Assembly: GCA_009377635.1 (NCBI GenBank)
Contig: WHTR01000024.1
Location: 1 to 36,868 of the forward strand
Direction of reading: 5' to 3'
Length of the DNA stretch: 36,868 nt
Source of the DNA: Chloroflexota bacterium
Lineage (GTDB): Bacteria > Chloroflexota > UBA6077 > SHYK01
The notes under the pieces were generated by a model. It worked only from the letters and a program-made list of their open reading frames with translations, was not told the origin of the DNA and did no database searches. Shown here piece by piece: positions 9,471 through 36,868 of the stretch (positions are counted from its first letter, which is position 1; the number at the start of each line of letters is the position of its first letter). Both the position numbers and the translations under genes were made by a program.

Positions 9471-10634
9471 ATGGCGGATACAGCGCAGGCGAACGCAGCA
9501 ACGACGACCACCAGTGCAATCCTGCAGCAGGTCTCTCTCCGGCAGGCTTCGCCGTACGATGTGTGGATCGAGTCTCTTGGCCTGCCCATCCACACCGGCT
9601 ACTACGTCGAGGACGTGCGCACCATCGAGTTGGGGTGGTGGGAGGAACGGCAGTGCAACACCGCCTTCCTGAAGCTCGCCGGCCAGGAGGGAGTGACGGA
9701 GGCCCGCATCACTGAAATCCCGGCGGGCGCTACGCTCCCACCGGTTCGGTTCGGCCTCGATGAAGTCGTGTACGTGGTGGAGGGAAGGGGTCTTGCCACC
9801 GTCCAGGGGAGGAATGGGCGAGCGGCCAAGACCTTTGAGTGGCAGAAGCACAGCCTCTTCCTGGTCCCTCGGAACTACACGCACCAGTTCAGCAACGTCC
9901 AGGGCAACGCGCCGGCACGGCTCCTCCACTACAACTACCTCCCCACGGCCATGGCGGTCGTTCCCGATCCTGGCTTCTACCTCAGGAGCCCATACGAGGG
10001 GCCAGATGTCGTCAGCGAGCAGGAGGTCGACTTCTACTCCGAGGCGAAGGTCGTCACGCCATCGGGCGACAGCGACAATCGGGGGATGGCCTTCTGGGTG
10101 GGCAACTTCTTCCCCAACATGCGTTCCTGGGACCAGCTGGTGCCCTTTCGCGGGCGCGGCGCGGGCGGCCATGTCGTCTGGATCCGCTACCCGAGCACGA
10201 CCATCACAAACCACATGTCCGTCTTCCCGGCACAGACCTACAAGAAAGCCCACCGGCACGGGCCGGGCGTCGTCATCATCATCCCTGCGGGGGAGGGCTA
10301 CTCGGTCATGTGGCCCGAGGGCCAGGAGAAGGTGTTCATCCCCTGGCACGAGGGCAGCGTGTTCGTCCCCCCCAACCGGTGGTTCCACCAGCATTTCAAC
10401 GTGGGCAGCCAGCCCGGGCGCTACCTCGCCTTCCACGCGCCTCGCAACATGAGCACCTACAGCGAGCGGGTGGAGGACCGGGCCCGGGACCAGATCGAGT
10501 ACCCGGATGAGGACCCGTGGATCCGGGAGACCTTTGGGAAAGAGCTGGCGAAGCGCGGGCTGACGTCGCTCTTGCCCGAGATCGCCTACCAGGAGCGGGA
10601 GTTCGAGTGGGAGTACGGCCAGCAGGGGGACTGA
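9471..10634 (+). CDS. bicupin family protein (two cupin domains)
   Basis: C-terminal KKAHRHGPGVVIIIPAGEGYSVMWPEGQ...SVFVPPNRWFHQHFN; N-terminal cupin-like EVVYVVEGRGLATVQG ... FLVPRNYTHQFSN; SD aaggaaaaggag. Confidence 0.8.
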   Translation: MADTAQANAATTTTSAILQQVSLRQASPYDVWIESLGLPIHTGYYVEDVRTIELGWWEERQCNTAFLKLAGQEGVTEARITEIPAGATLPPVRFGLDEVVYVVEGRGLATVQGRNGRAAKTFEWQKHSLFLVPRNYTHQFSNVQGNAPARLLHYNYLPTAMAVVPDPGFYLRSPYEGPDVVSEQEVDFYSEAKVVTPSGDSDNRGMAFWVGNFFPNMRSWDQLVPFRGRGAGGHVVWIRYPSTTITNHMSVFPAQTYKKAHRHGPGVVIIIPAGEGYSVMWPEGQEKVFIPWHEGSVFVPPNRWFHQHFNVGSQPGRYLAFHAPRNMSTYSERVEDRARDQIEYPDEDPWIRETFGKELAKRGLTSLLPEIAYQEREFEWEYGQQGD

Positions 10635-10733
10635 CAGCCTCGCCCGCGGGCCGGTGAGGGGCAAGATGACTCAGCTGACGCGGACGGGCTACGCCCGCCG
10701 CCAAGTCGTGCTCCGTTGGACAAGGAGGAAAAG

Positions 10734-11921
10734 ATGCTGACCCGAGAGGAAAACGAACGACTGACGCGCGTCGGGCCGGGGACGCCGGCCGGCGAGCTCC
10801 TCCGCCGGTACTGGCATCCGGTGGCCGCGGCCGAGGAGCTGACGGACGACCGGCCCACGAAGTTCGTGCGCATCCTCGGCGAGGACCTCGTGCTGTTCAA
10901 GGACCGGAGCGGCCGGGTCGGCCTGATCGCCGACCACTGCGCGCATCGAGGCGCCTCGCTGCTCTACGGCCGGGTCGAGGAGCGCGGGATCGCCTGCGCG
11001 TATCACGGCTGGCTGTATGACACCGAGGGGAGCTGCCTGGAGTGCCCCGCCGAGCCGGCCGGGAGCATGTTTCATCTGACGGTGAAGCATCGGGCCTACC
11101 CGGTACGGCAGTTCGCGGGGCTGTACTGGACGTACCTGGGACCGCTGCCGGCGCCGGAGATCCCGAGGTACGACGTGTGGGTCCGAACCGACGGATCCCA
11201 GAAGATCGACGTCTACCCCCGGCTCGACTGCAACTGGTTCCAGGCCATGGAGAACTCGGTCGACCCGGCCCACCTCCAGATCCTGCACCAGGACAGCCAG
11301 GGCAGACGAGCTCCGAACACGACCCGGGGCTTCACCGACTCGGTCCTGGGCTTCGACTTCTATGAGGTACCCTACGGCATCATCAAGCGGCGCCAATACG
11401 CAAACGGGAGGATCGACGAGCACCCGGTGATCTTCCCGAACATCCTCCGGGTGGGCAACTGCACGCAGATCCGGGTCCCGATGGACGACACGCACACGAA
11501 CATCTTCTTCGTGCGGTTCGTCCCGCGGGAGATCGCCGGCAACGGGGGCGGGACCGACGACGAATCCGACGTGCGGTACCTCGAGCCCTTCAAGACGCCC
11601 TCGGAGGCGCAGCACCCGTTCACACGATTTCGCATGGACCTGACCCTGGCGCAGGACCACATGGCGTGGGAAACTCAAGGACCCATCGCCGACCGGTCGA
11701 TCGAGCGTCTCGCGACGTCCGACCGCGGCATCGTGCTCCTGCGGCAGATCATGGTGCGCGAGATCGACCGGGTGCATCAGGGAACCGACCCGCTGGGCGT
11801 CGTCCGTGACCCGAACCACCCGATGATCGACACGCACCTGAGCGAGTCGCTGGAGGAGTTGATGGAGCGCGGCTACGCCGGCACGGCGGAGCTACTGCCG
11901 GAAGCCGCCCGGGCGCAGTAG
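10734..11921 (+). CDS. Rieske [2Fe-2S] aromatic ring-hydroxylating oxygenase alpha subunit (phthalate 4,5-dioxygenase-like)
   Basis: Rieske ligands CAHRGASL...CAYHGW; mononuclear iron motif ENSVDPAHLQILH; SD caaggagg precedes ATG at 10734. Confidence 0.92.
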   Translation: MLTREENERLTRVGPGTPAGELLRRYWHPVAAAEELTDDRPTKFVRILGEDLVLFKDRSGRVGLIADHCAHRGASLLYGRVEERGIACAYHGWLYDTEGSCLECPAEPAGSMFHLTVKHRAYPVRQFAGLYWTYLGPLPAPEIPRYDVWVRTDGSQKIDVYPRLDCNWFQAMENSVDPAHLQILHQDSQGRRAPNTTRGFTDSVLGFDFYEVPYGIIKRRQYANGRIDEHPVIFPNILRVGNCTQIRVPMDDTHTNIFFVRFVPREIAGNGGGTDDESDVRYLEPFKTPSEAQHPFTRFRMDLTLAQDHMAWETQGPIADRSIERLATSDRGIVLLRQIMVREIDRVHQGTDPLGVVRDPNHPMIDTHLSESLEELMERGYAGTAELLPEAARAQ

Positions 11922-16767: not shown

Positions 16768-18516
16768 GTGTCAGCCAGAGGTCCCGAGCGGCGACATCGA
16801 CCGCCGGGCGCGCCGGCCACAGCGCTATCCGTAATCGCCGGGCTCGCGATCCTCGTCACGGCAGCGTGCGCACCCGGCGCCCAGGGTCCGGGCCAGCAGA
16901 TGCCTCCCGGGGGCGCGTCGGCTCCAACACTGCTCACCATGGGGATCATTGCCGACGCCGAGCCGACTGGTCCGGAGTTTGCCTTCGGCAACATCTCCGC
17001 AGGTGCGTCCGAATCCAAGTATCTCCTCCACGCACCCCTCACGATCTACAACGACAGGGCCCAGCTCGAGCCCCGTGTCGCGCAGAGCATTCCCACGCTC
17101 GAGAATGGCGACTGGACCGTGTCGCCCGACGGTCGCATGGAAGTGACCTGGCGGCTACGCCCCGACGTGAAATGGCACGATGGTACGGCAATGACCGCCG
17201 ACGACCTGGTCTTCGGCTACCGGGTCGCCAGGGATCCCGAACTGGCCGTGGCGACCAGATCGATCAAGGATGTTGACGAGGTGGTCGCGACAGACCCCCA
17301 CACGGTGGTTGTGCGCTGGAAGCAGGTTTTTATCTATGCTAACGAGATGGGCCTCAACGCCATCCCGCCGCTGCCCCGGCATCTGATGGAGCCCCTCTAC
17401 GACGAGAGTGATCCCCAAGCGTTTGAAGCGAGCCCCTATTGGTCCGACCAGTGGGTCGGTCTCGGCCCGTACCGGATGCAGGAGTATGTTCGCGGAAGCT
17501 TCATCGACACGGTCGCTTTCGACGACTACTTCCTGGGCCGGCCCCAGATCGACCGCATCCGGATCCAGTTCATCGGTGATACACGGTCGCTCATCGTGAC
17601 CACGATGGCCGGCGACATCGACGTCGTGCCCGTCGGCTCCATGAAGGCGGAAGAGGCCTTCACGCTCAAGACCGAGTGGGAGGCCGCGGGAGCCGGAAGC
17701 GTCATCATCAGCAACAACAAGCTGCGGAATGCCGACCTGAATTGGCGCGATCCTTCCGCGCCGTGGGTGCAGGACGTGCGTATCCGGCAGGCCATGGTGC
17801 TCCTGTTGGATCGGCAGAATCAGGTGGAGACCCTCCACAATGGGCTATCAGCCGTGGACGACATCTTCTTCCCACGGGAGCATCCCGCCTACCAGCTCGC
17901 GAAGCAGCGCGGGCTGCCGGATCTCTCCTACGACGTGGACAAGGCCCACCGTCTGTTTCAGGACGCGGGTCTGACGCGAGGCCCGGACGGCGTCTACCAG
18001 TCGCAGACCGGCGCGCCCTTCGCCCTCGACGTATCAGCGACGGGCGATATCAATACGAACATCCAGGAGATGCTGGTCATCTCGAACGCCTGGCAGCAAG
18101 CGGGCATGCAGCCGAACAACATCGTGATCACGTCCGACAAGGACAAGGACGAGGTTCGGGGCAGGTCGCAGGGTGCCGTGCTGACGAGCACCGCGCTGGG
18201 ATACACATCCTTCAACGGATACATCACCGACGAGATTCGCTCGGAGTCGACACGCTGGAAGGGTGCGAACATCGGCGGCTACACGAACTCCAACTACGAC
18301 CAGCTCCGGGAGCGGGTCTTTGGCACAGTCGCCGCAACGGAGCGGGACCAGATCGCCGCCGACCTCATCAAGTTTCAGCTCGACAACATGGTCTATCTCC
18401 CGCTCGCCTATAGCCCCGATGTCGCGGCAAGCGCGAAGACGGTTCGCGGGGTCACGGGCACGCTCCCCGACCAGCGACTCACGTCGTGGAACGCCCATCT
18501 ATGGGAGAAGAGCTAG
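16768..18516 (+). CDS. ABC transporter substrate-binding lipoprotein, family 5
   Basis: LAILVTAACAPG lipobox; WRLRPDVKWHDGTAMTADDLVFGYRV; GTG at 16768 with ggagggag SD; alternative ATG at 16681. Confidence 0.88.
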   Translation: MSARGPERRHRPPGAPATALSVIAGLAILVTAACAPGAQGPGQQMPPGGASAPTLLTMGIIADAEPTGPEFAFGNISAGASESKYLLHAPLTIYNDRAQLEPRVAQSIPTLENGDWTVSPDGRMEVTWRLRPDVKWHDGTAMTADDLVFGYRVARDPELAVATRSIKDVDEVVATDPHTVVVRWKQVFIYANEMGLNAIPPLPRHLMEPLYDESDPQAFEASPYWSDQWVGLGPYRMQEYVRGSFIDTVAFDDYFLGRPQIDRIRIQFIGDTRSLIVTTMAGDIDVVPVGSMKAEEAFTLKTEWEAAGAGSVIISNNKLRNADLNWRDPSAPWVQDVRIRQAMVLLLDRQNQVETLHNGLSAVDDIFFPREHPAYQLAKQRGLPDLSYDVDKAHRLFQDAGLTRGPDGVYQSQTGAPFALDVSATGDINTNIQEMLVISNAWQQAGMQPNNIVITSDKDKDEVRGRSQGAVLTSTALGYTSFNGYITDEIRSESTRWKGANIGGYTNSNYDQLRERVFGTVAATERDQIAADLIKFQLDNMVYLPLAYSPDVAASAKTVRGVTGTLPDQRLTSWNAHLWEKS

Positions 18517-18557
18517 GACGCGAACACGTCCCATCGTCGCAGAGGAGGAATGACCGC

Positions 18558-19736
18558 ATGGTCCGAACGTATCGGCTCGTTTCGGGGGACAGTCACCTGC
18601 AGGTACCCGCGGACTTCTGGACCGATCGACTACCGCAGCGGTACCGTGACCTTGCCCCTCGGCGGGTCAAGATCGGGGGCGGCGGCGAAGCCATCGTCGC
18701 CGCGGACGGCTCCAAGTACTTCGGGGCCACGGGAAGCTATGCCGGCCACAGCCCGGAGGACTTCGACCCGACCGCGGCCTTCGACTATGACAAGGCCGTC
18801 GGCTCCGGCCCGCCCGCGCAGCGGCTGCGGGAGCAGGATCGAGACGGCGTGGACGCTGAGCTGCTATTCCCCGGGACGTCAGCGACACACGGCATCCGCG
18901 TCAAGGAGAGCGACGCGTATCTCGCGATGGTGCGCGGGTACAACGAATATCTCGCGGACTACTGCGCGGAGGCGCCCGATCGTCTGTTCGGCGTCGGCTT
19001 GATCCCTTCGGCCGAGATCGACGTCAAGATCGCTGAGATGGAGCGCCTCAAGGAGATGGGCATCAGGGCGGTCGGTCTGCTCGGGTACCCGGCCGGGGAG
19101 ACCTTCCCAACCCCCGAGGATGATCGGTTCTGGGCTGCCGCGAGCGACATCGAGATGCCGCTCTGCATCCACACCTCCATGTCGCGGAGCAGCGGCCGGC
19201 TGTTCCGGTATCCTCGGGTGCCCGAGTCCGGAAACCTGGAGGACGATTTCATCAACCGCCTCTATCGGCACGCCAACGCGTCCCGCTGCGGGTCGCTGAC
19301 GGCGTGCCAGATGGTGTTCGACGGGCTGTTTCACCGCTTTCCCTCGCTGAAGATCTACTGGGCCGAGAACAACATCGGGTGGATCCCCTTCTACCTCGAG
19401 CAGATGGACGCTGAGTATGAGAAGAACCACCACTGGGCGGAGCGCCTCTTCGGCATTCCCCGACTCGACGCGCCGCCCAGCGAGTACATCAAGGAGCACG
19501 CCTACTGGGGCTTCTACGACGACCCCATCGGGATCAAGCTGCGCCACGAGATCGGCGTCGACCACGTGATATGGGGGAGCGATTTCCCCCACGTCGTCTG
19601 CCACTGGCCCGGCACGCAGGAGCTACTCGACAAGCAGATGGCCGGCGTTGCCGATGACGAGAAGCACGAGATGCTTGCCGGGAATCTGATCGACTTCCTC
19701 CATCTCGAGGTCGAAGCCGAGACGTCCAACGCGTAG
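18558..19736 (+). CDS. amidohydrolase family protein (ACMSD-like TIM barrel)
   Basis: MVRTYRLVSGDSHLQVPADFW; RLKEMGIRAVGLLGYPAG; FPSLKIYWAENNIGWIPFYLEQMD; HVIWGSDFPHVVCHWPG. SD gaggagg before ATG at 18558. Confidence 0.88.
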   Translation: MVRTYRLVSGDSHLQVPADFWTDRLPQRYRDLAPRRVKIGGGGEAIVAADGSKYFGATGSYAGHSPEDFDPTAAFDYDKAVGSGPPAQRLREQDRDGVDAELLFPGTSATHGIRVKESDAYLAMVRGYNEYLADYCAEAPDRLFGVGLIPSAEIDVKIAEMERLKEMGIRAVGLLGYPAGETFPTPEDDRFWAAASDIEMPLCIHTSMSRSSGRLFRYPRVPESGNLEDDFINRLYRHANASRCGSLTACQMVFDGLFHRFPSLKIYWAENNIGWIPFYLEQMDAEYEKNHHWAERLFGIPRLDAPPSEYIKEHAYWGFYDDPIGIKLRHEIGVDHVIWGSDFPHVVCHWPGTQELLDKQMAGVADDEKHEMLAGNLIDFLHLEVEAETSNA

Positions 19737-19820: not shown

Positions 19821-20046
19821 AGGCCCTTTTCCACGGCACGCTGAGCTGAGACTCTCTCGATGTCTGGCGAAGGAGGAGATGAAGCAGGCATTTCTCCTCC
19901 GGCTGTCGCAGACTCGGTTCTAAACGGAAGCCACGATGAAACCCGCACAGTAGTGTGCCTACGGAATGCGGTTCTCACGGTGGAATGAGAATAGATGCGC
20001 CATCTCAAGCGTCGCGGAACGTTCAATCCACGAGGAGGCATCCCCG

Positions 20047-21207
20047 ATGAGCTATAACGGCCACACGGTCATCGACGCAGACTCACACATCCGCGAGTAC
20101 TGGGACCTCGATCGGACCTACAAGGAGTTCATCGACCCCACGTACCGAGCGATGTTCGAATCGTTCAGTGCCGCGGTCAAGGCCCGCCAGCACCGCTCCG
20201 GCGACGTCGGCCTCGGCGAGCTGCTCTGGCCTCGCCTCCCGGGTCACCCCATGGGTGTCTACGACGCCTTTGCTGCACCCCAGGGCGAGCGGAGCGAGGG
20301 GAACGGGGCTCCTAGCCGTGCCATCTCGAACGCGGGTAGGGATATCGATCCAGCGTGCCATTGGGACCCGACGATCCGGGTGCGGGACATGGACACCGCC
20401 GGCGTCGACATCAGCGTCATGTTCCCCAGCCAGTCCGACGGCTTCTGCATGCTCGACGATGTCGGCTTCGAGAGCGCCCTCCACCGCGCCTACCACCGCT
20501 TCATGAGCTCCTACTGCGCCGAGTCCGACGGCCGCCTCCGCTGGGTCGCCGACGCCTCCATGCGCGATATCCCCGAGACCGTCGCCGCCCTCTCCTACTG
20601 GGCCGAGCACGACGTCCACTTCGCCGGCACCTTCATCTCCCGCGCCTGCCCCGACGGCAGCATGCTCGACCACCCCCGCCTCCACCCCCTCTTCGCCGCC
20701 TCCCAGCAGCTCAACCTGCCCATCTGGGTCCACGGCGGCTCCAACCGCCCTCCCCTCACCCCCTGGGTCAGCGCTCCCAACGGCATCTACCACGCCTGGG
20801 GCGGCCAGTACGCCCTCGCCGCCCTCATCGGCGGCGGCGTCTTCGACCTCTTCCCCTCCCTCCGCATCGGCCTCTTCGAGAGCTTCGGCGGCTGGCTCCC
20901 CTGGTTCCTCGAACGGCTCGACGATGCCTACTCCCCCGGCTCCCCCCAGACCCCCTACCTCAAACGCACCCCCTCGGAGATCGTCGCCAGCGGCCAGCTC
21001 TTCTGCTCCATCGAGGCCGAGGAGGCGCACATCCCCTACGCCGTCGAGGCCCTCGGGGAGAACCTCTGGTTGTTCAGCACCGACTATCCACACGGTGGCA
21101 CATGCTGGCCGGATGGGGTGCCGCTGATCACGGAGAAGACGATGTCGGAGAGCGCCAAAGTGAAGATCCTCGGCGAGAACGCCAAGCGGTTCTTGCCCCG
21201 AATTTGA
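20047..21207 (+). CDS. amidohydrolase family protein (ACMSD-like TIM barrel)
   Basis: MSYNGHTVIDADSHIREYWDL; FPSLRIGLFESFGGWLPWFLERLDDAY; LWLFSTDYPHGGTCWPDG; SD aggagg before ATG at 20047. Confidence 0.9.
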   Translation: MSYNGHTVIDADSHIREYWDLDRTYKEFIDPTYRAMFESFSAAVKARQHRSGDVGLGELLWPRLPGHPMGVYDAFAAPQGERSEGNGAPSRAISNAGRDIDPACHWDPTIRVRDMDTAGVDISVMFPSQSDGFCMLDDVGFESALHRAYHRFMSSYCAESDGRLRWVADASMRDIPETVAALSYWAEHDVHFAGTFISRACPDGSMLDHPRLHPLFAASQQLNLPIWVHGGSNRPPLTPWVSAPNGIYHAWGGQYALAALIGGGVFDLFPSLRIGLFESFGGWLPWFLERLDDAYSPGSPQTPYLKRTPSEIVASGQLFCSIEAEEAHIPYAVEALGENLWLFSTDYPHGGTCWPDGVPLITEKTMSESAKVKILGENAKRFLPRI

Positions 21208-21232: not shown

Positions 21233-21312
21233 GGGCGCAACGATGTTGCAGTGTTCGACCTGCGAGCGTCGGACCGTGCGACCGTGATCGAATCACGTCC
21301 TGCGAGGGAAAG

Positions 21313-23070
21313 GTGAGCCAGCAAGATCAAAGCAGCGCACAGCCGACGAACCCGCAGCCCGGCACGGACCATGAGCACGGCCACTGGGGCGCGCATGACC
21401 ACGCCGAAGGCATGTACGGGCACATCCACGACCCTGAACACGACGACTTCTTCCATTCCCACCCGGGCGAGCCCGAGATGATCGCCCTCACCCCGGAGGA
21501 GGCGGGCAACCGGATCACGCTGACCAGCGTCGGCATCGACGTCGGGTCCTCCACCTCCCACCTCATGTTCTCCCGCCTCGTGCTGGAGCGACAGGGCCTC
21601 GCCCTCTCGAGCCGCTTCGTCGTCGTGGACCGCAGCATCGTCTTCAAGTCGCCGATCCTCCTCACGCCATACGTCGACGAGACGACCATCGACACCGAGG
21701 AGCTGTCGAGATTCATCGAGGGCGTTTACAAGGACGCCGAGATGAGCACGGCCGACGTCCAGACGGGCGCAACGATCTTCACCGGTGAGGCTGCGAAGAA
21801 GAACAACGCGGAGGCGATCGCGGCGCTGTTCGCCGAGCAGGCCGGCAAGTTCGTGTGCGCGACGGCCGGGCCCAATCTCGAGGCGGTCATGGCAGCGTAC
21901 GGGTCGGGCGCGTGCGCGCGCTCGGGCCCCCGGGACGGCGAACCCAGGACGGTGATGAACATCGACATGGGCGGTGGCACGGCCAAGTTCGCCATCTGCC
22001 GAGCCGGCGAGGTCCTCGAGACGGCAGCGATGAACGTGGGGGCGCGCCTGGTGGCGATGGACGCGGCGGGCCGGATCACGCGTATCGAGGCCGCCGGCCA
22101 GCTCATCGCCGACGAGCTGGGGATCTCGCTTGAGATCGGCGAACCGCTCCGCCAGGAGCATCAGCAGGCGATGGCTGACCTGCTGGCCGAGTGCCTCTAC
22201 AACGTTGCCGAGCGGCGCCGTCTGGGGCGCCTCGCCGACATTCTCATGATCACCGCCCCGATTGCGTACATGGGCCCTCTCGACGCGGTGAGCTTCTCCG
22301 GGGGTGTGTCCGAGTATGTCTACGGGAATGAGACGCGGAACTTCGGTGACCTGGGCATCCTCCTGGGGTCGGCGGCCATGAGCCGCGTCGGGCGATTGGG
22401 CGTTCCCGTTGACCAGGCCGAGCAGACGATCCGGGCCACGGTGATCGGGGCCGGGCAGTACACACTCCAGGTAAGCGGCAGCACGATCCACGTGTCGAAG
22501 CCGGCGCTGCTGCCCCATCGGAACCTCCAGGTCGTCGCCCCCGTCATGCCCGGGGACGGCGAGTACTCGGTGGAATCGGTTCGACAGTCGATCGAGCAGG
22601 GGATGCAGCGCCTCGACGTCGTTGAGGGGGACCAGGACATCGCCCTCGCGTTCAAATGGCGGATGGAGCCGTCCTATCAGCACGTCAAGACGCTGGCGGA
22701 GGGAATTGCCCGGGCGCTCCCCAACACCATTGCGTCCACGCAGCCTCTCACCCTCGTCTTCGACTCGGATATCGGCGGAGCCGTGGGCAACATGCTCACG
22801 CGAGAGGTGATCCCAGGCCACGACCTCGTCTCCATCGACGAGGTGCAGCTCAACGACCTGGACTACATCGATCTCGGAGAGGAGCTAGAGGACGTCCACG
22901 CCGTGCCCGTGGTCGTGAAGTCGTTGGTGTTCACGACAGCCCGGGAGCGGCGCGCAGGCCTTGTGCCCGGGGCTCGCCCGCACCAGCACGACCATGGGCA
23001 TGACGATCATCACGACGACGACCACGACCATGATCACAGTCATGCCCATGGACATCCGCATCCTCAGTGA
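21313..23070 (+). CDS. EutA-like ethanolamine ammonia-lyase reactivating factor with His-rich N- and C-terminal tails
   Basis: TSVGIDVGSSTSHLMFSRLVLE; IFTGEAAKKNNAEAIAALFAEQAGKFVCATAGPNLEAVMAAYGSGA; MNIDMGGGTAKFAICRAGEVLETAAMNVGARL; SFSGGVSEYVYG; IRATVIGAGQYTLQVSGSTIHV; SDIGGAVGNML; DYIDLGEE; VPVVVKSLVF: colinear with EutA. GTG start. Confidence 0.88.
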   Translation: MSQQDQSSAQPTNPQPGTDHEHGHWGAHDHAEGMYGHIHDPEHDDFFHSHPGEPEMIALTPEEAGNRITLTSVGIDVGSSTSHLMFSRLVLERQGLALSSRFVVVDRSIVFKSPILLTPYVDETTIDTEELSRFIEGVYKDAEMSTADVQTGATIFTGEAAKKNNAEAIAALFAEQAGKFVCATAGPNLEAVMAAYGSGACARSGPRDGEPRTVMNIDMGGGTAKFAICRAGEVLETAAMNVGARLVAMDAAGRITRIEAAGQLIADELGISLEIGEPLRQEHQQAMADLLAECLYNVAERRRLGRLADILMITAPIAYMGPLDAVSFSGGVSEYVYGNETRNFGDLGILLGSAAMSRVGRLGVPVDQAEQTIRATVIGAGQYTLQVSGSTIHVSKPALLPHRNLQVVAPVMPGDGEYSVESVRQSIEQGMQRLDVVEGDQDIALAFKWRMEPSYQHVKTLAEGIARALPNTIASTQPLTLVFDSDIGGAVGNMLTREVIPGHDLVSIDEVQLNDLDYIDLGEELEDVHAVPVVVKSLVFTTARERRAGLVPGARPHQHDHGHDDHHDDDHDHDHSHAHGHPHPQ

Positions 23071-23157
23071 GCCGATTGACGTAACGTCATCGGGCGTCGA
23101 GGCTCATTGGAGCGCATCATCAAACCGAGATGGACAGGCGTACACCGGAGGTGGGAG

Positions 23158-24873
23158 ATGAGTCCCTGGAAGAAGGTGTTGGTCTCCGCGTTAACGGCCA
23201 CGATCCTGCTCGCGGCGTGCGCGCCCGGACCCGCCACGCCCGGAGGCCAGGGCACCGACGACGGTACATCGGCGTCGACCGGCCCCAAGCGGGTGACCGC
23301 CGCGATCCAGGGCGATCCGCACACCCTCTACCAGAAGCTGAACCCGGCCTCGCGGGTCCGCGGGATCGATGCGCTCGAGCAGCTCGTGGCAGCTGGGCTG
23401 ACGACGCCGGACCCGGGCGGTGGGCTGCGTCCCCAGCTCGCGGTGGCGGTCCCCTCCCTCGAGAACGACCAGTGGAAGCTCCTCCCTGACGGCCGGATGG
23501 AGACGTCCTGGACCATCAGAGACGGCGTCCAGTGGCACGACGGGACGCCCTTCACCGCAGAGGACCTCGTGTTCACGATGACCGTGGTTCGAGATAAGGA
23601 CCTGCCAGTCTTCGGGGACTTCGCCTACGACCTCATCGACCGGGTCGAGGCGCGGGACAGCCGCACCGTCGTCGTGCACTGGGCGGAGCCTTTCAACGAG
23701 GCAGACTCGCTGTTCAGCTACCGGCGCGCCGTTCCTATTCCACGCCACCTGCTCGAGCAGGCGTATTCCGAAGAGAAGGCAACATTCACCGATCACCCGT
23801 ACTGGAGCAACCAGTTCGTGGGAAACGGCCCCTTCAGGCTCGACGACTGGGAGCTCGGAAGCCACCTCGTCTTCCGTGCCACCGACAGCTATGTCCTCGG
23901 CCGACCGAAGATCGACGAGATCGAGGTGCGATTTATCGAAGACGCGAGCACCTTGGTGTCCAACCTCCTCGCGGGCTCCGTGGAGCTGACGATGGGACGG
24001 AGCCTTGCTGGCGAGCAGGCGATGCAGGCGCGCGACCAGTGGAGCGATGGCCGCATGGACCTGTCGTTCGAGAACTGGATCGCCCTCTACCCACAGTTCA
24101 TCGGCGCCAGTCCCGCGATCGTAGGTGACGTCCGATTCCGGCGGGCGCTGCTCCACGCGATCGACCGCCAGGAGCAGGTCGACGTTCTCATGGGTGGCAC
24201 GAGCGCAGTCGCGAACAGCTTCATGAATCCCAACCAGGCCGAGTATCGGGAGATCGAGGAGCGCAGCGTCGTCCGCTACGAGTACGATCCGCGGAAGGCG
24301 GCCCAGATGCTCGAAGGGCTCGGTAACACGAGGGGCCCGGACGGCATCCTGCGCGACGCGACGAATCAACCGCTGTCGTTGGAGATCCGGACGACAGCGG
24401 GGGACGACCTCCGCGAGAAGATGCTGTTCTCCATCAATGACGATCTCCAGCAGGTCGGAGTAACGGTGGACCCGGTGATCATCCCACGACAACGCGCGTC
24501 GGATCAGGAGTATCGCGCGACGTTCCCGGCCTTCGAGCTGACACGCAACCCGAACGACGTCCGCGGGATGCGGAGCATCCACAGCCGCAACACGGCGCTG
24601 CCCGAGAACAACTTCCGGGTGACGGGGAACCGCACCCGCTACGTCAACCCCGACTTCGACGGCCTCATCGACCGATTTTTCATGACCATCCCCAAGCAGG
24701 AGCGCCTCCCGATCCTAGGCCAGATCCTGCATCACCTCTCCGACCAGGCCGTCATCATGGGCATCCTCTACAACACGTCGCCAACCCTGCTGAGCAATCG
24801 GTTGATCAACGTTGGAGCGGGAGGCCTCGGCGCTACCCAGGCCTGGAACGCTCACGAGTGGGACGTCCTGTGA
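23158..24873 (+). CDS. ABC transporter substrate-binding lipoprotein, family 5
   Basis: MSPWKKVLVSALTATILLAACAPGP lipobox; WTIRDGVQWHDGTPFTAEDLVFTM; C-terminus NRTRYVNPDFDGLIDRFFMTIPKQER...WNAHEWDVL. Confidence 0.9.
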   Translation: MSPWKKVLVSALTATILLAACAPGPATPGGQGTDDGTSASTGPKRVTAAIQGDPHTLYQKLNPASRVRGIDALEQLVAAGLTTPDPGGGLRPQLAVAVPSLENDQWKLLPDGRMETSWTIRDGVQWHDGTPFTAEDLVFTMTVVRDKDLPVFGDFAYDLIDRVEARDSRTVVVHWAEPFNEADSLFSYRRAVPIPRHLLEQAYSEEKATFTDHPYWSNQFVGNGPFRLDDWELGSHLVFRATDSYVLGRPKIDEIEVRFIEDASTLVSNLLAGSVELTMGRSLAGEQAMQARDQWSDGRMDLSFENWIALYPQFIGASPAIVGDVRFRRALLHAIDRQEQVDVLMGGTSAVANSFMNPNQAEYREIEERSVVRYEYDPRKAAQMLEGLGNTRGPDGILRDATNQPLSLEIRTTAGDDLREKMLFSINDDLQQVGVTVDPVIIPRQRASDQEYRATFPAFELTRNPNDVRGMRSIHSRNTALPENNFRVTGNRTRYVNPDFDGLIDRFFMTIPKQERLPILGQILHHLSDQAVIMGILYNTSPTLLSNRLINVGAGGLGATQAWNAHEWDVL

Positions 24874-29627: not shown

Positions 29628-30566
29628 CTAGCCAGCGAGAAGGGCGTCCAGCGCGTTCGTGTCGTCACCGCTGAGGCGCCACTCGAGGGACCGCACATTC
29701 TCATCCACCTGCTCCGGGCGGGTCGCGCCAGCGATGACGCTCCCCACCGCGGACTGCGACCCCAGCCAGGCAAGAGCGAGCTCTCCGACTGTATGGTCCC
29801 GCTCGCTGGCGAAACGCTCAAGCTTCGCCAGCGTGGCGAAGTTCGCCTCGTTGAGGGTGCGCGGCGCCCGCTCTCCGCTCGTCGCCAGGCGAGAACCAGC
29901 CGGCGGCGGCTGGCCAGAGCGGTACTTGCCGGTCAGAAACCCGCCCGCCAGGGGCGAGTATGGAATGACCCCCAGTCCATATCTCTCGCAAACGGGCACC
30001 AGCTCCGCCTCGATGGAGCGATTCAGGAGACTGAACGCGTTCTGTGCAGCGATGAGGGGCTCGATATGCTCGGACCGCGCGATCCACTGCGCCTCGACCA
30101 CCTGCCAAGCGGCGAAGTTCGAGCACCCGATGTAGCGGACGTCGCCGTGTGTGACCAGATCGTCTAGCGCCCGCATCGTCTCTTCAAGCGGCGTCGTAGG
30201 ATCCCAGAAGTGGATCTGGTAGAGGTCGATGTAGTCGGTCTTGAGGCGCTGGAGGCTGGCGTGGACCGCATGCATCATGTGGCGTCGGGACGCGCCGCGG
30301 CGGAGCGGTCCATCGCCGATCGCGCTCTCGAACTTTGTGGCCAGGATCACCTCGTGTCGCCGGCCCTGGACGGCGTTTCCAATGTACTCCTCGGAGAGCC
30401 CATCGCCGTATATGTCTGCGGTATCGAAGAACGTGATGCCGAGATCCATCGACCGATGGACCACGGCCACGCTCTGTGCCCCGTCGCACCGACGGCCGAA
30501 GCTGTTGGTGCCGAGGCCGGCGAGCGAGACCTGAAGGCCCGAGTTGCCCAGAGGGCGGTATTCCAT
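29628..30566 (-). CDS. aldo/keto reductase
   Basis: MEYRPLGNSGLQVSLAGLGTNSFG; GITFFDTADIYGDGLSEEYIG; LKTDYIDLYQIHFWDPTTPLEETMRALDDLVTHGDVRYIGCSNF. Confidence 0.93.
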   Translation of the reverse strand: MEYRPLGNSGLQVSLAGLGTNSFGRRCDGAQSVAVVHRSMDLGITFFDTADIYGDGLSEEYIGNAVQGRRHEVILATKFESAIGDGPLRRGASRRHMMHAVHASLQRLKTDYIDLYQIHFWDPTTPLEETMRALDDLVTHGDVRYIGCSNFAAWQVVEAQWIARSEHIEPLIAAQNAFSLLNRSIEAELVPVCERYGLGVIPYSPLAGGFLTGKYRSGQPPPAGSRLATSGERAPRTLNEANFATLAKLERFASERDHTVGELALAWLGSQSAVGSVIAGATRPEQVDENVRSLEWRLSGDDTNALDALLAG

Positions 30567-30569
30567 GCG

Positions 30570-31583
30570 TCAGCCCCCGAGGGTGATCATCTCGATCTTG
30601 TGGCGCCCGGCCGCATCATACCCTGTTGGCGAGCGCAGCGCAGCGAGGCGCTCCTCGGAGTAGCGGTCATGTCGCCCTCCCCAGATGGCCGCGACCCGAC
30701 TGACCAGCTCGTCATCGCTGTCACCCCGCCGCAGCGGCGTCTTGAGGTCGTGACCCTGCCCGGCAAAGAGGCAGGTGACGAGCTTCCCGTCGGCGGTCAA
30801 CCGCAGCCGCGTGCAGCTCGCGCAGAAGGGCTCCGTCACTGAGGCGATGACGCCGACCTGCCCTGCGCCATCGACAAACTCGTAGTCAACGGCCGGCGCA
30901 CGTCCGCCGTTTCGCCCGATCTCCCGCAGCGGGTGGACGCGGTTGATGCCATCGAGGATCTCCCGCTTCGAGACGACCCGGTCCAGAACCCACCCGTTCG
31001 CGTTGCCGACGTCCATGAACTCGATGAAGCGAATCGTGAATCCATGCTGGCGAGCGAACTCGACGAGAGGGACGATGTCGTCGTCGTTGACACCGCGTTG
31101 AATCACTGCGTTGAGCTTGATAGGGTGGAGCCCGTGGTCCTTGGCGGCGAACAGCCCGTCAAGGACCTTTGCGAGGTCACCCCGGCGTCGGATCTGCCGG
31201 AACTTCTCGGGGTTCAACGTGTCTAAGCTGACATTCACGCGCTGAAGGCCCGCAGCCCTCAGGGAGGCGACCTTCTCGGCGAGGAGCGAGCCGTTCGTCG
31301 TGAGAGAAAGATCATCCATCCCTGGTATCGATGAGAGGCGCCTGATGAGGTCCTCGAGGTGTGGACGGATGAGAGGCTCGCCACCGGTGAGCCGGATCTC
31401 ATCCACACCCAAGCCCACGAGGAGACGGGCGAGGCGTCCGACCTCGTCGTACCTCAGGAGCTCGTTGTTCGGGATCCACGGGTATTCGTCGAATGGCATG
31501 CAGTACGTGCACCGAAAGTTGCACCGATCCGTCACCGAGATCCGGAGGTCCTTCAAGGGGCGAGCAAAGACGTCTTGGGGCAT
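30570..31583 (-). CDS. moaA: GTP 3',8-cyclase (molybdenum cofactor biosynthesis protein A)
   Basis: PLKDLRISVTDRCNFRCTYCMPFDEYPWIP; IRLTGGEPLIRPHLEDLI; second cluster CASCTRLRLTADGKLVTCLF; C-terminal GG. ATG at 31583; alternative TTG at 31607. Confidence 0.95.
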   Translation of the reverse strand: MPQDVFARPLKDLRISVTDRCNFRCTYCMPFDEYPWIPNNELLRYDEVGRLARLLVGLGVDEIRLTGGEPLIRPHLEDLIRRLSSIPGMDDLSLTTNGSLLAEKVASLRAAGLQRVNVSLDTLNPEKFRQIRRRGDLAKVLDGLFAAKDHGLHPIKLNAVIQRGVNDDDIVPLVEFARQHGFTIRFIEFMDVGNANGWVLDRVVSKREILDGINRVHPLREIGRNGGRAPAVDYEFVDGAGQVGVIASVTEPFCASCTRLRLTADGKLVTCLFAGQGHDLKTPLRRGDSDDELVSRVAAIWGGRHDRYSEERLAALRSPTGYDAAGRHKIEMITLGG

Positions 31584-31616
31584 CGTCGATTCCAGCTTGC
31601 GGTCCAACCCCGCGGC

Positions 31617-32174
31617 TCACATCATGCCGAGCGTGAGCTTGGCGGCATCGGGGATCATGCTGAAGTCCCACGGCGGGTCAAACACCAGCTCGACGTCGGT
31701 CTCCGTGATGCCCGGGATGGTGGGGAGCTTGCTCTCAACCTCGGCCTTGAGCACATCGCCCATACCGCAGCCGGGCGCCGTCAGCGTCATCTCGATGTGC
31801 ACGCGGTACCCACCTCCGTCACGTACCGTCACCGCGCACGCGTAGACGAGCCCCAGGTCCGCAATGTTGACCGGAATCTCGGGATCGAAGCACGTCCGAA
31901 GCTGGTCCCAGACGAGCCCCTCGACCTCCTCGGCCGACTGCGGCTGCGCGGAGGCGAGCTGCTGGATCGTGCTATCGAGGTCCTTTCCGATGGCGTCCAC
32001 ATCCTGGTTCTGGACGCGGACCATGAACCCTTCGTCGGTCACGACCGTGTACGTCCCGCCCAGGGCCTGGTGGATGCTTCCACCCGTCCCCGCGTGCAGC
32101 ACCATCCGGGAGCCAGCGGGGACCTGGATGACCTCACAGTCTCGACTGAACGTGATGCGCTCATCGCCATGCAT
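31617..32174 (-). CDS. sufT: SufT-like Fe-S cluster assembly protein (MIP18/DUF59 domain)
   Basis: ATG at 32174; CFDPEIPVNIADLGLVYACAV; MTLTAPGCGMGDVLKAEVESKLPTIPGITETDVELVFDPPW. Confidence 0.88.
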   Translation of the reverse strand: MHGDERITFSRDCEVIQVPAGSRMVLHAGTGGSIHQALGGTYTVVTDEGFMVRVQNQDVDAIGKDLDSTIQQLASAQPQSAEEVEGLVWDQLRTCFDPEIPVNIADLGLVYACAVTVRDGGGYRVHIEMTLTAPGCGMGDVLKAEVESKLPTIPGITETDVELVFDPPWDFSMIPDAAKLTLGMM

Positions 32175-32179
32175 CGTTG

Positions 32180-32632
32180 CTACTCCGTTGAAACCTGCGG
32201 GCGATCCTGACGGAGCGCCGCGCGCATCGCGTGCCACGCCAAGGTCGCGCACTTGACCCGGATGGGAAACTCTCGAACGCCGGCGAGGACCTCCAGCTTG
32301 CCGAGCCCGTCTTCGCTGAGATCGACGGACGGATCCCCAGTGAGCAGCGCATGGAGGGCGGCGAAGAGCTGATCCGCGTCCGCCCGCGACTTCCCCTTGA
32401 GCTGCTCGGTCATCAGCGACGCCGAGGCCTTCGCGATGGCACAGCCATACCCCTGGAAGCTCATGTCGACAATCCGATCGCCATCTAGCTGCAGGTACAC
32501 GACGACCTGGTCGCCACACAGGGGGTTGATCCCTTCGGCCATCCGGTTCGCGCTCTCGAGCTTCGCGAAGTTGCGCGGCCGGCGATTATGGTCGAGGATG
32601 ACCTCCTGATACAGCTCAGTCAGCTCGGACAT
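32180..32632 (-). CDS. sufU: SUF system scaffold/sulfurtransferase SufU
   Basis: LYQEVILDHNRRPRNFAKLE; NPLCGDQVVVYLQLDGDRIVDMSFQGYGCAIAKASASLMTEQLKGKS; RVKCATLAWHAMRAAL. Confidence 0.95.
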   Translation of the reverse strand: MSELTELYQEVILDHNRRPRNFAKLESANRMAEGINPLCGDQVVVYLQLDGDRIVDMSFQGYGCAIAKASASLMTEQLKGKSRADADQLFAALHALLTGDPSVDLSEDGLGKLEVLAGVREFPIRVKCATLAWHAMRAALRQDRPQVSTE

Positions 32633-33891
32633 CAGCCGAACACCTCGATGGCTGCGTCGACCGCGCGGGCCAGCGCGTCAACCTCCTCGCGCGTGTTGTA
32701 GAACGCGAACGACGCCCGCGCCGTGGCAGGCACGCCAAAACGCTGCATGAGCGGCATCGCACAGTGGTGGCCAGCGCGGATAGCCACACCATGCTGATCA
32801 AGAATCGTCCCCAGGTCGTGAGCGTGGATGCCGTCTATGACGAAGGAGATCACGCTCGCCTTCTCGCGGGCCGTCCCGATGATCTGCAGACCCGGAATCG
32901 CGGCGAGCACACCCGTGGCGTAGTCGAGCAGCTCGTGCTCGTACCCGCCGGCGGCGCTCAGGCCGACCTGCTGCACGTAGTCGATGGCAGCTCCCAGCCC
33001 CACGACACCCGCGATGTTGGGCGTGCCGGCCTCGAACTTGTACGGCAGGACGTTGTACTGGGTCTTCTCGAACGTGACCGAGGCGATCATCTCGCCGCCA
33101 CCCTGGTACGGCGGCATCTCCTCCAAGAGATCTGCCTTTCCATACAACGCACCGACACCGGTCGGCCCATACAGCTTATGACTGGAGAAGGCGTAAAAGT
33201 CACAGTCCAGGTCCCGGACGTCGACTCGCAGGTGCGGCACTGCCTGCGCGCCATCCAGCAGCACCGGAGCGCCGTGGCTGTGGGCCATCTCGATCATCTG
33301 CTTGACCGGATTGATGGTCCCCAGCACGTTGGACACGTGCGCCAGGGCGACGAGCTTCGTTCGCTCGCTCAGGAGCCGTCGATACTCGTCGACCAGGAGC
33401 TCGCCGTCGTCGTCCACGGGGATCACGCGGAGTCGCGCCCCCACCTGCTGGCACACGAGCTGCCACGGCACGATGTTGGAGTGGTGCTCCATCGCGGAGA
33501 CGATGATCTCGTCGCCTTCCGTGAGGACGGACCGAGCATAGCTCTGCGCCGCGAGGTTGATGCCCTCGGTCGTTCCCCGGACGAAGATGATCTCTCGGGA
33601 ATCCGCGGCATTGATGAACTCGCGCACCTTCGATCGGGTCCGCTCGTACGCCTGCGTCGCTCGCTCCGCCAACGTGTGGATCGCTCGATGAATGTTGGCG
33701 TTGTCCTCCGCGTAGTAACGACTCAGCGTGTCGATGACGACGCGCGGCTTCTGGGCGGTCGACGCGTTATCGAGGTATACGAGCGGCTGGCCGTTGACGC
33801 GTTGGTTGAGAACCGGGAAGTCGTCTCGGATCCGCTGTACGGGAAATGCGCCCCCGGAGGTGGGCTGGCTCATCCGCGTCCCTGTACTCAT
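32632..33891 (-). CDS. sufS: cysteine desulfurase SufS
   Basis: [86 protein letters not shown]. Confidence 0.96.
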
Positions 33892-35249
33892 GGCCGCACC
33901 TTGGCTTCCCAGCCCGTGCGAAGGGCCGACATCAGCAGTTGCGCGAGCCGCTCCCGGAGGGTCTGGATGGCGATGCGTTCGATGAGCTCGGCCGCGAACC
34001 CGTAGGTGAGGAGGCCGCGCGCGGTCTGCTCGCCCATCCCGCGGCTCCGCGCGTAGAAGAGCATGTCGTCATCGAGCTGTCCGATGGCTGCGCCGTGCGT
34101 GCAGCGCACGTCATCGGCGAGGATCTCTAGCTGCGGCTTCGTATCCACGATCGCCTGCTCCGACAGGAGGAGGTTCCGGTTGATCTGGTGCGCGTCGGAC
34201 TTCTGGGCGCCAGGTCGCACGCGGATCATTCCGTTGAAGACGGCGCGCCCTCTGCCATCGAGAACGCCCTTGTACAGCTGCCGACTCGTCCCGTGGGGCA
34301 CGGCATGGTCGATGGACGTGTGGTGATCGACGTGCTGCGTGCCCGTCGCGACATACAGACCATTCAGCGTGCAGTCCGCACCCTCACCGTCCAGCAGCAC
34401 GTTCAAGTCGTTTCGGGCGAGCCGGGCCCCCATCGCGATAGAGTACGACGTGTACGCGCTGTCGCATGCCTGGTGCACCTGCGTTGTAGCCACGTGGTAC
34501 GCGCTCGGACCCTCCAACATCAGCCTGTAGTGGGAAAGGACCGACCCATCGCCCAGCACCAGCTCAGTGACGGCATTACTGAACACATGCGCATCCTGCG
34601 CCGAGACGTACGTCTCGATGACGACTGCCTGGCTTCCCGTCCCGGTGATGACGAGCGTCCGCGGGTGTACTACCGTTGGCGCCTCGCGCGAGGTGGCGAT
34701 GAAGACAACGTGGATCGGCTCCTCCACGATGTACCCGTCGGGCACGTAGACCACCGCGCCATCCCGGATGAGAGCCGTATTGATCGCCGTGAAAGCATTC
34801 GTCTCGTATCGAGCGTAGCGCGCGAGGTGCGACTCGACCGCCGCCTCCTGGGTCTGCACCGCCTCAGAGAGGCCCGCGACGACCAGACCATCTCGTCGGA
34901 CAGGCAGCGACGACAGGTTCGGCGCGACACGACCGTCGACGATGACAAGCTGCGTCCATCCCCGCGCGTCGGGTGCGAGCGCTCGAACACGCGTGAGGCG
35001 GGCCGCGTCCGCCTCCGGCAGATCGGGCGCGCCGTCCAGAATGGGCTGAAACGGCGTCTCCACGATGGGAGCCACGCTCGTGTATTTCCAGTCCTCGTCT
35101 CGCGTTGTCGGGAAGTGCAGGTCCTCGAAGCGCGTCAGAGCCCGCTGTCGAGTTTCCCGCAGCCACGCTGGCTCTGGCGGCAGCACGTTACGCTGCAGCG
35201 CCTCATAGGCTGAGAGGAACTGCTCCTTCTCTCGCGCGACCTGCAACAT
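33888..35249 (-). CDS. sufD: Fe-S cluster assembly protein SufD
   Basis: [114 protein letters not shown]. Confidence 0.96.
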
Positions 35250-35252
35250 GTG

Positions 35253-36029
35253 TCAGCTTCCCCCCTCGGCAGCAACAGGAACGGGTCCCTCATCCTTTAC
35301 CCAGTCGTACCCCTTGGCCTCCAGCTCCAGGGCGAGGCCCTTGCCGCCGGAGAGCGCGATGCGCCCGCCAAGAAGCACGTGCACGTAGTCCGGGGTAACG
35401 TAGTTCAGGACCCGCTGGTAGTGGGTCACGAGCAGCATCGCGCGCTCGGGATGCCGCATCGTGTTGATCCCGTTCGCCACAACCCGCAGCGCGTCGATGT
35501 CTAATCCGGAGTCCGTCTCGTCGAGGATAGCCAGCCGAGGTTCCAGTATGGCCATCTGGAGGATCTCGTTCCGCTTCTTCTCGCCTCCCGAGAAGCCCTC
35601 GTTGACCGGCCGGTTCGCCATCGCCTGGTCCATCTCCACGAAACGCATCCTCTCGCGCAGCAGCTGCAGGAACTCGATCGCGTCGAGCTCCGGGAGGCCG
35701 CGGTGCGCCCGGATCTCGTTCAGCCCGGCCTTCAGGAAGTACGCGTTCGCCACGCCCGGAATCTCGACCGGGTACTGGAACGCAAGGAACACACCCTCCC
35801 GTGCGCGCGCCTCGGGTGGCATTTCGAGGAGATTACGGCCCTCGAACAGCACCTTTCCCTCGGTCACCGTGTACGCGGGATGGCCGGCGAGCACCTGGGC
35901 GAGCGTACTCTTCCCAGAGCCATTGGGCCCCATCACGGCGTGGACCTCGCCGGGTTTAACCGACAGGTCGACGCCCTTCAGGATCTCCTGTCGGTCGACA
36001 CGCACGTGGAGGTTTCGGATCTCCAGCAC
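35253..36029 (-). CDS. sufC: Fe-S cluster assembly ATPase SufC
   Basis: GTG at 36029; VNPGEVHAVMGPNGSGKSTLAQ-type Walker A (VKPGEVHAVMGPNGSGKSTLAQVLAGHPAYTVTEGKVLF); FSGGEKKRNEILQMAILEPRLAILDETDSGLDIDAL. Confidence 0.97.
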   Translation of the reverse strand: MLEIRNLHVRVDRQEILKGVDLSVKPGEVHAVMGPNGSGKSTLAQVLAGHPAYTVTEGKVLFEGRNLLEMPPEARAREGVFLAFQYPVEIPGVANAYFLKAGLNEIRAHRGLPELDAIEFLQLLRERMRFVEMDQAMANRPVNEGFSGGEKKRNEILQMAILEPRLAILDETDSGLDIDALRVVANGINTMRHPERAMLLVTHYQRVLNYVTPDYVHVLLGGRIALSGGKGLALELEAKGYDWVKDEGPVPVAAEGGS

Positions 36030-36868
36030 TACCCGACGCTCCCCTCGAGGCTGACGCCCAGCAGTTTCGTCGCCTCGACCGCAAACTCCATCGGGAGCTC
36101 GCGGAAGACCTCCTTGCAGAAGCCGTTCACGATCAACGATACCGCGTTTTCCGCCGACAGGCCGCGCTGCTGGCAATAGAACAGCTGGTCCTCGCCGATC
36201 CTGGACGTGGACGCCTCGTGCTCAACCTGCGACGCGTCGTTCATAACTTCGATGTATGGCAACGTATGTGCGCCGCACGTATCGCCCAGCAGCAGCGAGT
36301 CACACTGGGAGTGATTCCGCGCGCCCCTCGCGCCCCTCTGCACGCGCACCAGACCGCGGTACGTGTTCTGTCCGTGGCCTGCCGAGATGCCCTTCGAAAC
36401 GATCGTGCTCCGCGTGTTCTCGCCGAGGTGGATCATCTTCGTGCCCGTGTCGGCCTGCTGGTGATTGTTCGTCAGGGCAACGGAATAGAACTCGCCGACC
36501 GAGTTGTCCCCCTGCAAGATGACGCCTGGGTACTTCCAGGTGATCGCCGACCCGGTCTCGACCTGCGTCCACGAGATCTTGGAGTTCGCTCCGAGACACT
36601 TTCCGCGCTTCGTCACGAAGTTGAAGATGCCGCCGTTGCCCTCGCGGTCGCCCGCGTACCAGTTCTGGACGGTTGAGTACTTGATCGTTGCGTTCTCATG
36701 GGCGATCAGCTCGACGACCGCGGCGTGAAGCTGGTTCTCGTCGCGCATCGGCGCGGTGCAGCCCTCGAGGTAGCTGACGTAGCTCCCCTCATCCGCGATG
36801 ATGAGTGTTCGCTCGAACTGGCCGGTGCTCGCGGCGTTGATGCGGAAGTACGTCGACAGCTCCATCGG
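36029..36868 (-). CDS. sufB: Fe-S cluster assembly protein SufB (partial; N-terminus beyond window end)
   Basis: [106 protein letters not shown]. Confidence 0.96.

Follow-up and report, generated by a model that had tools for sequence, protein, structure and literature searches.

The gene at positions 21,313 to 23,070 of the window (the whole stretch of 36,868 nucleotides analysed here) encodes a protein of the EutA family extended at both ends by histidine-rich tails, and it raises the question of which enzyme such a protein serves. EutA has been treated as the factor of a single client, a cobalamin enzyme, and database names follow this view. The original prediction, made from the DNA alone, also leaned towards cobalt or cobalamin. 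We call the window's kind of protein EutA2. The features of its gene and product are the following.

21304..21308, + strand: GAGGG, a Shine-Dalgarno-like sequence 4 nt 5' of the GTG start (sequence)
21313..23070, + strand: EutA2, ASKHA ATPase of the EutA family, His-rich at both ends, 585 aa from a GTG start (PF06277, E = 3.3e-128)
21313..21507, + strand: N-terminal extension, residues 1-65, 10 His, cluster at 21370-21462 (kept in L008/L189 and L024)
21532..21561, + strand: phosphate-1 loop GIDVGSSTSH, residues 74-83 (alignment of EutA2 with classical EutA)
21958..21987, + strand: phosphate-2 motif NIDMGGGTAK, residues 216-225 (same alignment)
22297..22317, + strand: adenosine-motif region SGGVSEY, residues 329-335 (same alignment)
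22981..23067, + strand: C-terminal His/Asp tail, 29 aa, 13 His (sequence)

The predicted colinearity of the core with EutA was confirmed by the Pfam search, in which PF06277 covered residues 69-540 and profile positions 2-474 of 475, at 429 bits against a cut-off of 27 (E = 3.3e-128). EutA was the sole Pfam match, so the core does not fall in another ASKHA family; the same search gave no match to the DdrA/PduG family and no P-loop G3E GTPase domain. Four NCBIfam EutA equivalogs were matched as well, all under their cut-offs (best 368.8 vs. 598). A phmmer search of the window EutA2 against the PDB gave no match, and the AlphaFold models of this protein (3 sequences) and of the bicupin described below (2 sequences) reached a pLDDT of 44-45, too poor for use.

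Within the family, a tree of 82 EutA cores split the window's kind (74 rows) from eight classical EutAs, on a branch with an SH-aLRT of 100%. Residues A160, K225 and E334 are fixed in EutA2 and different in classical EutA: position 225 is K in all EutA2 and N in all eight classical rows, from which E334 is absent as well. Also, S79, S80, H83 and Q386 are nearly fixed in EutA2 and differ in the classical proteins, which mainly present T, T and Q at the first three of these positions. The ASKHA nucleotide-binding residues G74, D76, G78, D218, G220-G222, G330, G331 and D346 are common to both sets. As the nucleotide motifs are kept next to residues specific to EutA2, the ATPase site is retained in a modified form, and EutA2 probably has a different client. 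Compared with EutA (PF06277), EutA2 thus has the same full-length core, the same nucleotide-binding residues and presumably the same ATP-driven release of a spoiled cofactor, but it forms a separate clade, carries A160, K225, E334, Q386 and H83, occurs without EutB and near bicupins, has His-rich extensions and scores below the NCBIfam cut-offs.

The suggested connection with cobalt or cobalamin was not borne out. The source genome, a 3.5-Mb MAG, contains five EutA genes, not counting a fragment and a weak match in a 427-aa frame. A search for EutB gave nothing in this MAG, which is 84% complete. EutA without EutB also occurs in 7 relatives that are 95-98% complete, and EutBC was missing from both the commonest and the sampled gene neighbours of the EutA branch to which the window protein belongs. 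Among 201 Chloroflexota genomes, EutA is present in 16, EutB in 9 and both in 2; the corresponding numbers for 385 genomes of the proteobacterial class of genome G206 are 11, 28 and 1. EutA and EutB are therefore not associated in either sample (Fisher p = 0.15 and 0.57, 586 genomes), and a link of EutA2 with cobalamin or ethanolamine ammonia-lyase was rejected on the evidence of its own genome and of these 586 others. In the class of G206, 27 genomes encode EutB without EutA, i.e., an ethanolamine ammonia-lyase apparently without the classical reactivase.

When the genes around the EutA loci gathered first were clustered, one family stood out: a bicupin (Cupin_2) about 370 aa long. Among 78 EutA2 loci gathered by EutA similarity alone, 53 have a bicupin gene on the same strand at no more than 1.2 kb from EutA2 (40 upstream, 13 downstream); the next commonest neighbour family was found at 12 loci, at up to 6 kb from EutA. 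About one third of the EutA2 loci have no nearby bicupin, and 5 have UbiD instead. In the Chloroflexota sample (n = 201), the 15 genomes with a bicupin comprise all 14 that have EutA without EutB, neither of the 2 that have both, and 1 that has a bicupin but no EutA. Of the 385 genomes of the proteobacterial class, 12 have the bicupin and 11 have EutA, with an overlap of 11 and a single genome with the bicupin alone. The co-occurrence of EutA and bicupin gives Fisher p values of about 1e-18 and 2e-20, respectively, which are overstated as genomes were treated as independent, and which rely on a bicupin profile built mostly from copies near EutA, so that distant cupins may be under-counted. The two proteins also diverge together: over 46 EutA-bicupin pairs, their distances correlate with r = 0.75 (0.63 and 0.91 within two groups), a value reached by none of 2000 pair shuffles, the best of which gave 0.23. 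EutA2-bicupin pairs are also plasmid-borne, in Phyllobacterium and Sinorhizobium. The partnership of EutA2 with the bicupin across two phyla is well supported, and the EutA2 branch belongs with bicupin metalloproteins, a point that the cobalamin reading missed. In the open-access papers searched, we found no earlier report of EutA with a cupin or dioxygenase partner, or of an orphan EutA; the "EutA" of the ectoine literature is presumably a different protein with the same name.

The bicupin profile had its best match in the gentisate 1,2-dioxygenase 3bu7, and single bicupins weakly matched 5-aminosalicylate 1,2-dioxygenase. Sequences YxKxHRH and HQHF are kept in the C-terminal cupin (65 copies), and the metal-site residues H261/H263 and H306/H308 are conserved in 94/92% and 100% of the 65 aligned bicupins, respectively. 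The usual partner of EutA2 has in common with gentisate and 5-aminosalicylate 1,2-dioxygenases the bicupin architecture and the HxH...HxH motifs, but it is only distantly similar to them, and its one metal site that is well kept lies in the C-terminal cupin. At locus L008, which holds the 69%-identical homologue of the window EutA2, the gene next downstream of that homologue is clearly homologous to gentisate/aminosalicylate dioxygenases (TIGR02272, E = 4e-60; 3bu7, E = 1e-52). Beyond it come genes for a DapA/HpaI-type aldolase and an amidohydrolase, and then the usual bicupin. Further neighbours at EutA2 loci are Rieske oxygenases, UbiD decarboxylases, amidohydrolases, tripartite tricarboxylate transporters and class II aldolases, one of which resembles 3,4-dihydroxyphthalate decarboxylase. 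These neighbours fit gene clusters that are catabolic and probably directed at aromatic acids. A membrane protein of the ceramidase family (PF05875) is encoded directly 3' of EutA2 at L148 (8838-9641), L151 (11239-12051) and L152 (11497-12297).

The surroundings of EutA2 in the window contain the following genes.

9471..10634, + strand: bicupin, 387 aa, from the family found paired with EutA2 at other loci, HRH and HQHF metal-site motifs in the C-terminal cupin (profile and motifs)
10716..11921, + strand: Rieske [2Fe-2S] oxygenase, LigXa_C-like, 3' of the bicupin (domain match)
18486..19736, + strand: Amidohydrolase_2 family protein, 5' of EutA2 (Pfam)
19966..21207, + strand: Amidohydrolase_2 family protein, directly 5' of EutA2 (Pfam)
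23107..24873, + strand: SBP_bac_5 solute-binding protein, directly 3' of EutA2 (Pfam)

An SBP_bac_5 gene, 47% identical, likewise lies 3' of the EutA2 homologue of L024, and an Amidohydro_2 gene is also part of the gene run that follows the homologue of L008. NikA was rejected as a name for the downstream SBP_bac_5 protein, as this best NCBIfam match is far below its cut-off and the family is generic; it does not constitute evidence for nickel. The window EutA2 has no adjoining bicupin, and the sole bicupin of the window is 10.9 kb off, beside the Rieske gene. The closest relatives of this bicupin are paired with EutAs from the clade of another paralogue (C291), and it may therefore not be the client of the window EutA2, which probably acts on clients encoded elsewhere in the genome. 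By the pairing rule, we infer that this client would be one of the other bicupins of the source genome (about 21), possibly one related to the partner found at L025, which is 73% identical to a bicupin of this genome. With about 22 bicupin paralogues and 5 EutA genes in a 3.5-Mb MAG, both families show an unusual expansion.

The histidine-rich tails at both termini are real, and the statement that classical EutA has no such tails also proved correct. The window EutA2 has 10 His in residues 1-65, 13 in the last 29 residues and 7 in the 476-residue core; at the core rate, the binomial chance of such counts is 4e-8 for the N-tail and 8e-17 for the C-tail. The stretch of up to 40 aa before the core contains on average 0.25 His in 8 classical EutAs vs. 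2.84 in 76 proteins of the window's kind, and C-tails with at least 5 His were found in none of the 5 readable classical EutAs vs. 9 of 55. Nor are the tails an oddity of the assembly or the strain, as the nearest homologues keep one or both: the N-tail pattern HGHWGxHDHxxG is shared by L024 (core identity 79%) and L008/L189 (69%), and the C-tail has 19 His in L024 and 3 in L189. Long C-terminal His tails appear in at least three separate clades of the tree, namely the window clade, L026 and a proteobacterial clade (L156, L159, L162, L165, L168, L175), and in all three the sequence ahead of the core has His as well. Shorter His/Asp motifs at that place, such as MHDLDFDHGH, FFHEHGPDADHDHD and HFPDHHGE, are widespread in EutA2. 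Overall, a 20-residue stretch with at least 5 His occurs in 27 of 73 EutA2 proteins vs. 36 of 978 neighbour genes of the same loci. As related proteins conserve these tails and classical EutA has none, a role in metal handling is a sensible suggestion. A subclade of about 19 EutA2 rows is mostly without His-rich ends, and the bicupin is kept by many of its members; the tails are thus dispensable for the pairing. Members of this subclade (L147, L148, L152, L172 and others) have a different conserved N-terminus, roughly GGRxxF...E-rich...LTSV, often together with a bicupin. Other His-rich products encountered at EutA2 loci were a His-tailed class II aldolase (L182, 1433-2203), a methyltransferase adjoining EutA2 (L065, 5890-7092), a bicupin with the C-terminal end EHQHAHTH (L052, 16809-17789) and a small protein adjoining NicO (L175, 4513-4914).

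Neighbouring genes give hints about the metal. In four proteobacterial loci of one clade (L163, 9123-11393; L166; L153; L161), the gene order is UbiD-EutA2-NicO, with the NicO start a few bases from the EutA2 stop or overlapping it. UbiD takes the place of the bicupin in this apparent operon, and the clients of EutA2 may come from more than one family of enzymes. Locus L175 has NicO, then a Rieske-type oxygenase and a bicupin, divergent from EutA2. In Phyllobacterium (L147), nikR and nixA adjoin the EutA2-bicupin pair, whose EutA2 belongs to the His-poor subclade; nixA is common in rhizobia, and this occurrence, weak when taken alone, is strengthened by the separate NicO loci. Nickel genes were found near EutA2 at 6 loci, all proteobacterial and none in the window's phylum. 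Nickel is the leading guess, as NicO and NixA transport nickel/cobalt and NikR responds to nickel; NicO/RcnA-type proteins can also be exporters. The metal of the EutA2-linked cupin is thus hinted to be nickel, with iron and manganese also in play. Cupin dioxygenases can use nickel, as does the quercetinase QueD (PMC4416304).

We give a probability of roughly 0.5 to the reading that the window EutA2 belongs to a distinct EutA branch that no longer serves ethanolamine ammonia-lyase, and that it serves metal-dependent cupin enzymes, mainly bicupins related to gentisate and 5-aminosalicylate 1,2-dioxygenases, as an ATP-driven reactivase or a metal-loading chaperone whose tails would buffer the metal. 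Ring-cleaving dioxygenases can self-inactivate through their metal. The mode of action, the metal involved and the function of the tails are matters of inference: EutA2 would spend ATP to open or remodel the bicupin, the spoiled metal (oxidised or wrong) would be released from the inactivated cupin enzyme, and a divalent metal held by the His-rich tails would be handed over to reload the cupin site. This proposal is economical, since it is the same act as that of EutA on ethanolamine ammonia-lyase, from which EutA expels damaged cobalamin using ATP (PMC5821096), with a different cofactor. The His-rich regions of HypB bind several Ni per monomer and were proposed as stores (PMC7055735). With slightly less assurance, we suggest that this is an undescribed repair system, where an EutA-type ATPase would reactivate or re-metallate cupin ring-cleavage dioxygenases, possibly nickel-dependent, a B12-reactivase fold being turned to non-heme metal enzymes. 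DdrA/PduG are also ASKHA reactivases of suicidal enzymes, in this case diol dehydratases, but EutA2 has no Pfam match to their family and no diol dehydratase context was seen. The G3E GTPases HypB, UreG and CobW, and SlyD, have His-rich regions and deliver metal either as chaperones or driven by nucleotides; the likeness to EutA2 is one of analogy and not of membership, as their fold is another one and EutA2 has no P-loop G3E match. XylT-type ferredoxins, which reactivate catechol dioxygenase, are likewise dedicated to the repair of a ring-cleaving dioxygenase encoded by an adjoining gene, but they are electron donors and not ATPases.

Other explanations have to be weighed against this one. 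EutA2 could be a true EutA, acting on ethanolamine ammonia-lyase or on another adenosylcobalamin enzyme in trans, as its annotation, its family membership and the cobalamin guess of the original prediction would indicate, and the missing EutB could be a gap in a MAG that is 84% complete. However, five EutA genes with no EutB in one genome, seven nearly complete relatives that likewise have EutA but not EutB, the lack of any association with EutB across 586 genomes and a separate clade with swapped conserved residues make this very improbable. A less remote but still unlikely alternative is that EutA2 and the bicupin catalyse consecutive steps, or form the two subunits of a single catabolic enzyme. 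The ASKHA domain would then use ATP on a substrate, as in oxoprolinase/hydantoinase or acetone-carboxylase-type ATPases, rather than on its protein partner. Adjacency and co-divergence fit this alternative equally well, the pairs do sit in catabolic clusters, and UbiD replaces the bicupin in 5 loci; yet the whole length of the core is EutA, the described function of EutA is protein reactivation (PMC5821096), no catalytic domain accompanies it, and the His tails would be left without a role.

The tails themselves, with 10 and 13 His in short stretches and repeated origins at the C-terminus, could mean that EutA2 mainly stores or buffers metal, with HypB- or SlyD-like tails, as proposed for the Ni-binding regions of HypB (PMC7055735), its ATPase core having little specificity for the bicupin. 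The nucleotide-site residues, fixed and unlike those of classical EutA, the strict pairing with one enzyme family and the fact that His-poor members are still paired render this somewhat less likely again than a shared catabolic enzyme. Finally, several copies of both genes per genome and their plasmid-borne occurrence in rhizobia would suit a passenger role, in which the two have no functional contact and merely share catabolic islands that are mobile or amplified. We consider this improbable, since the gene order varies (bicupin upstream in 40 loci, downstream in 13) and the linkage nevertheless holds over two phyla, the partners co-diverge, and either one is almost never found alone.

The EutA2 branch, often present in multiple copies per genome, thus has as its companion a metalloprotein other than the classical client, with no sign of cobalamin. 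If EutA2 does repair or load cupin dioxygenases, ATP-driven reactivation of suicidal cofactors would reach non-heme metal sites, aromatic degradation in proteobacteria and uncultured Chloroflexota would gain a missing maturation factor, and a set of proteins now annotated as "EutA" or "hypothetical protein" would have to be renamed. At the far end of the window (29628-36865, - strand), genes for an aldo/keto reductase, a MoaA-like radical SAM protein, an FeS-assembly (PF01883) protein, a class V aminotransferase and SufBD were also observed; these are ordinary cofactor genes, unrelated to EutA2.
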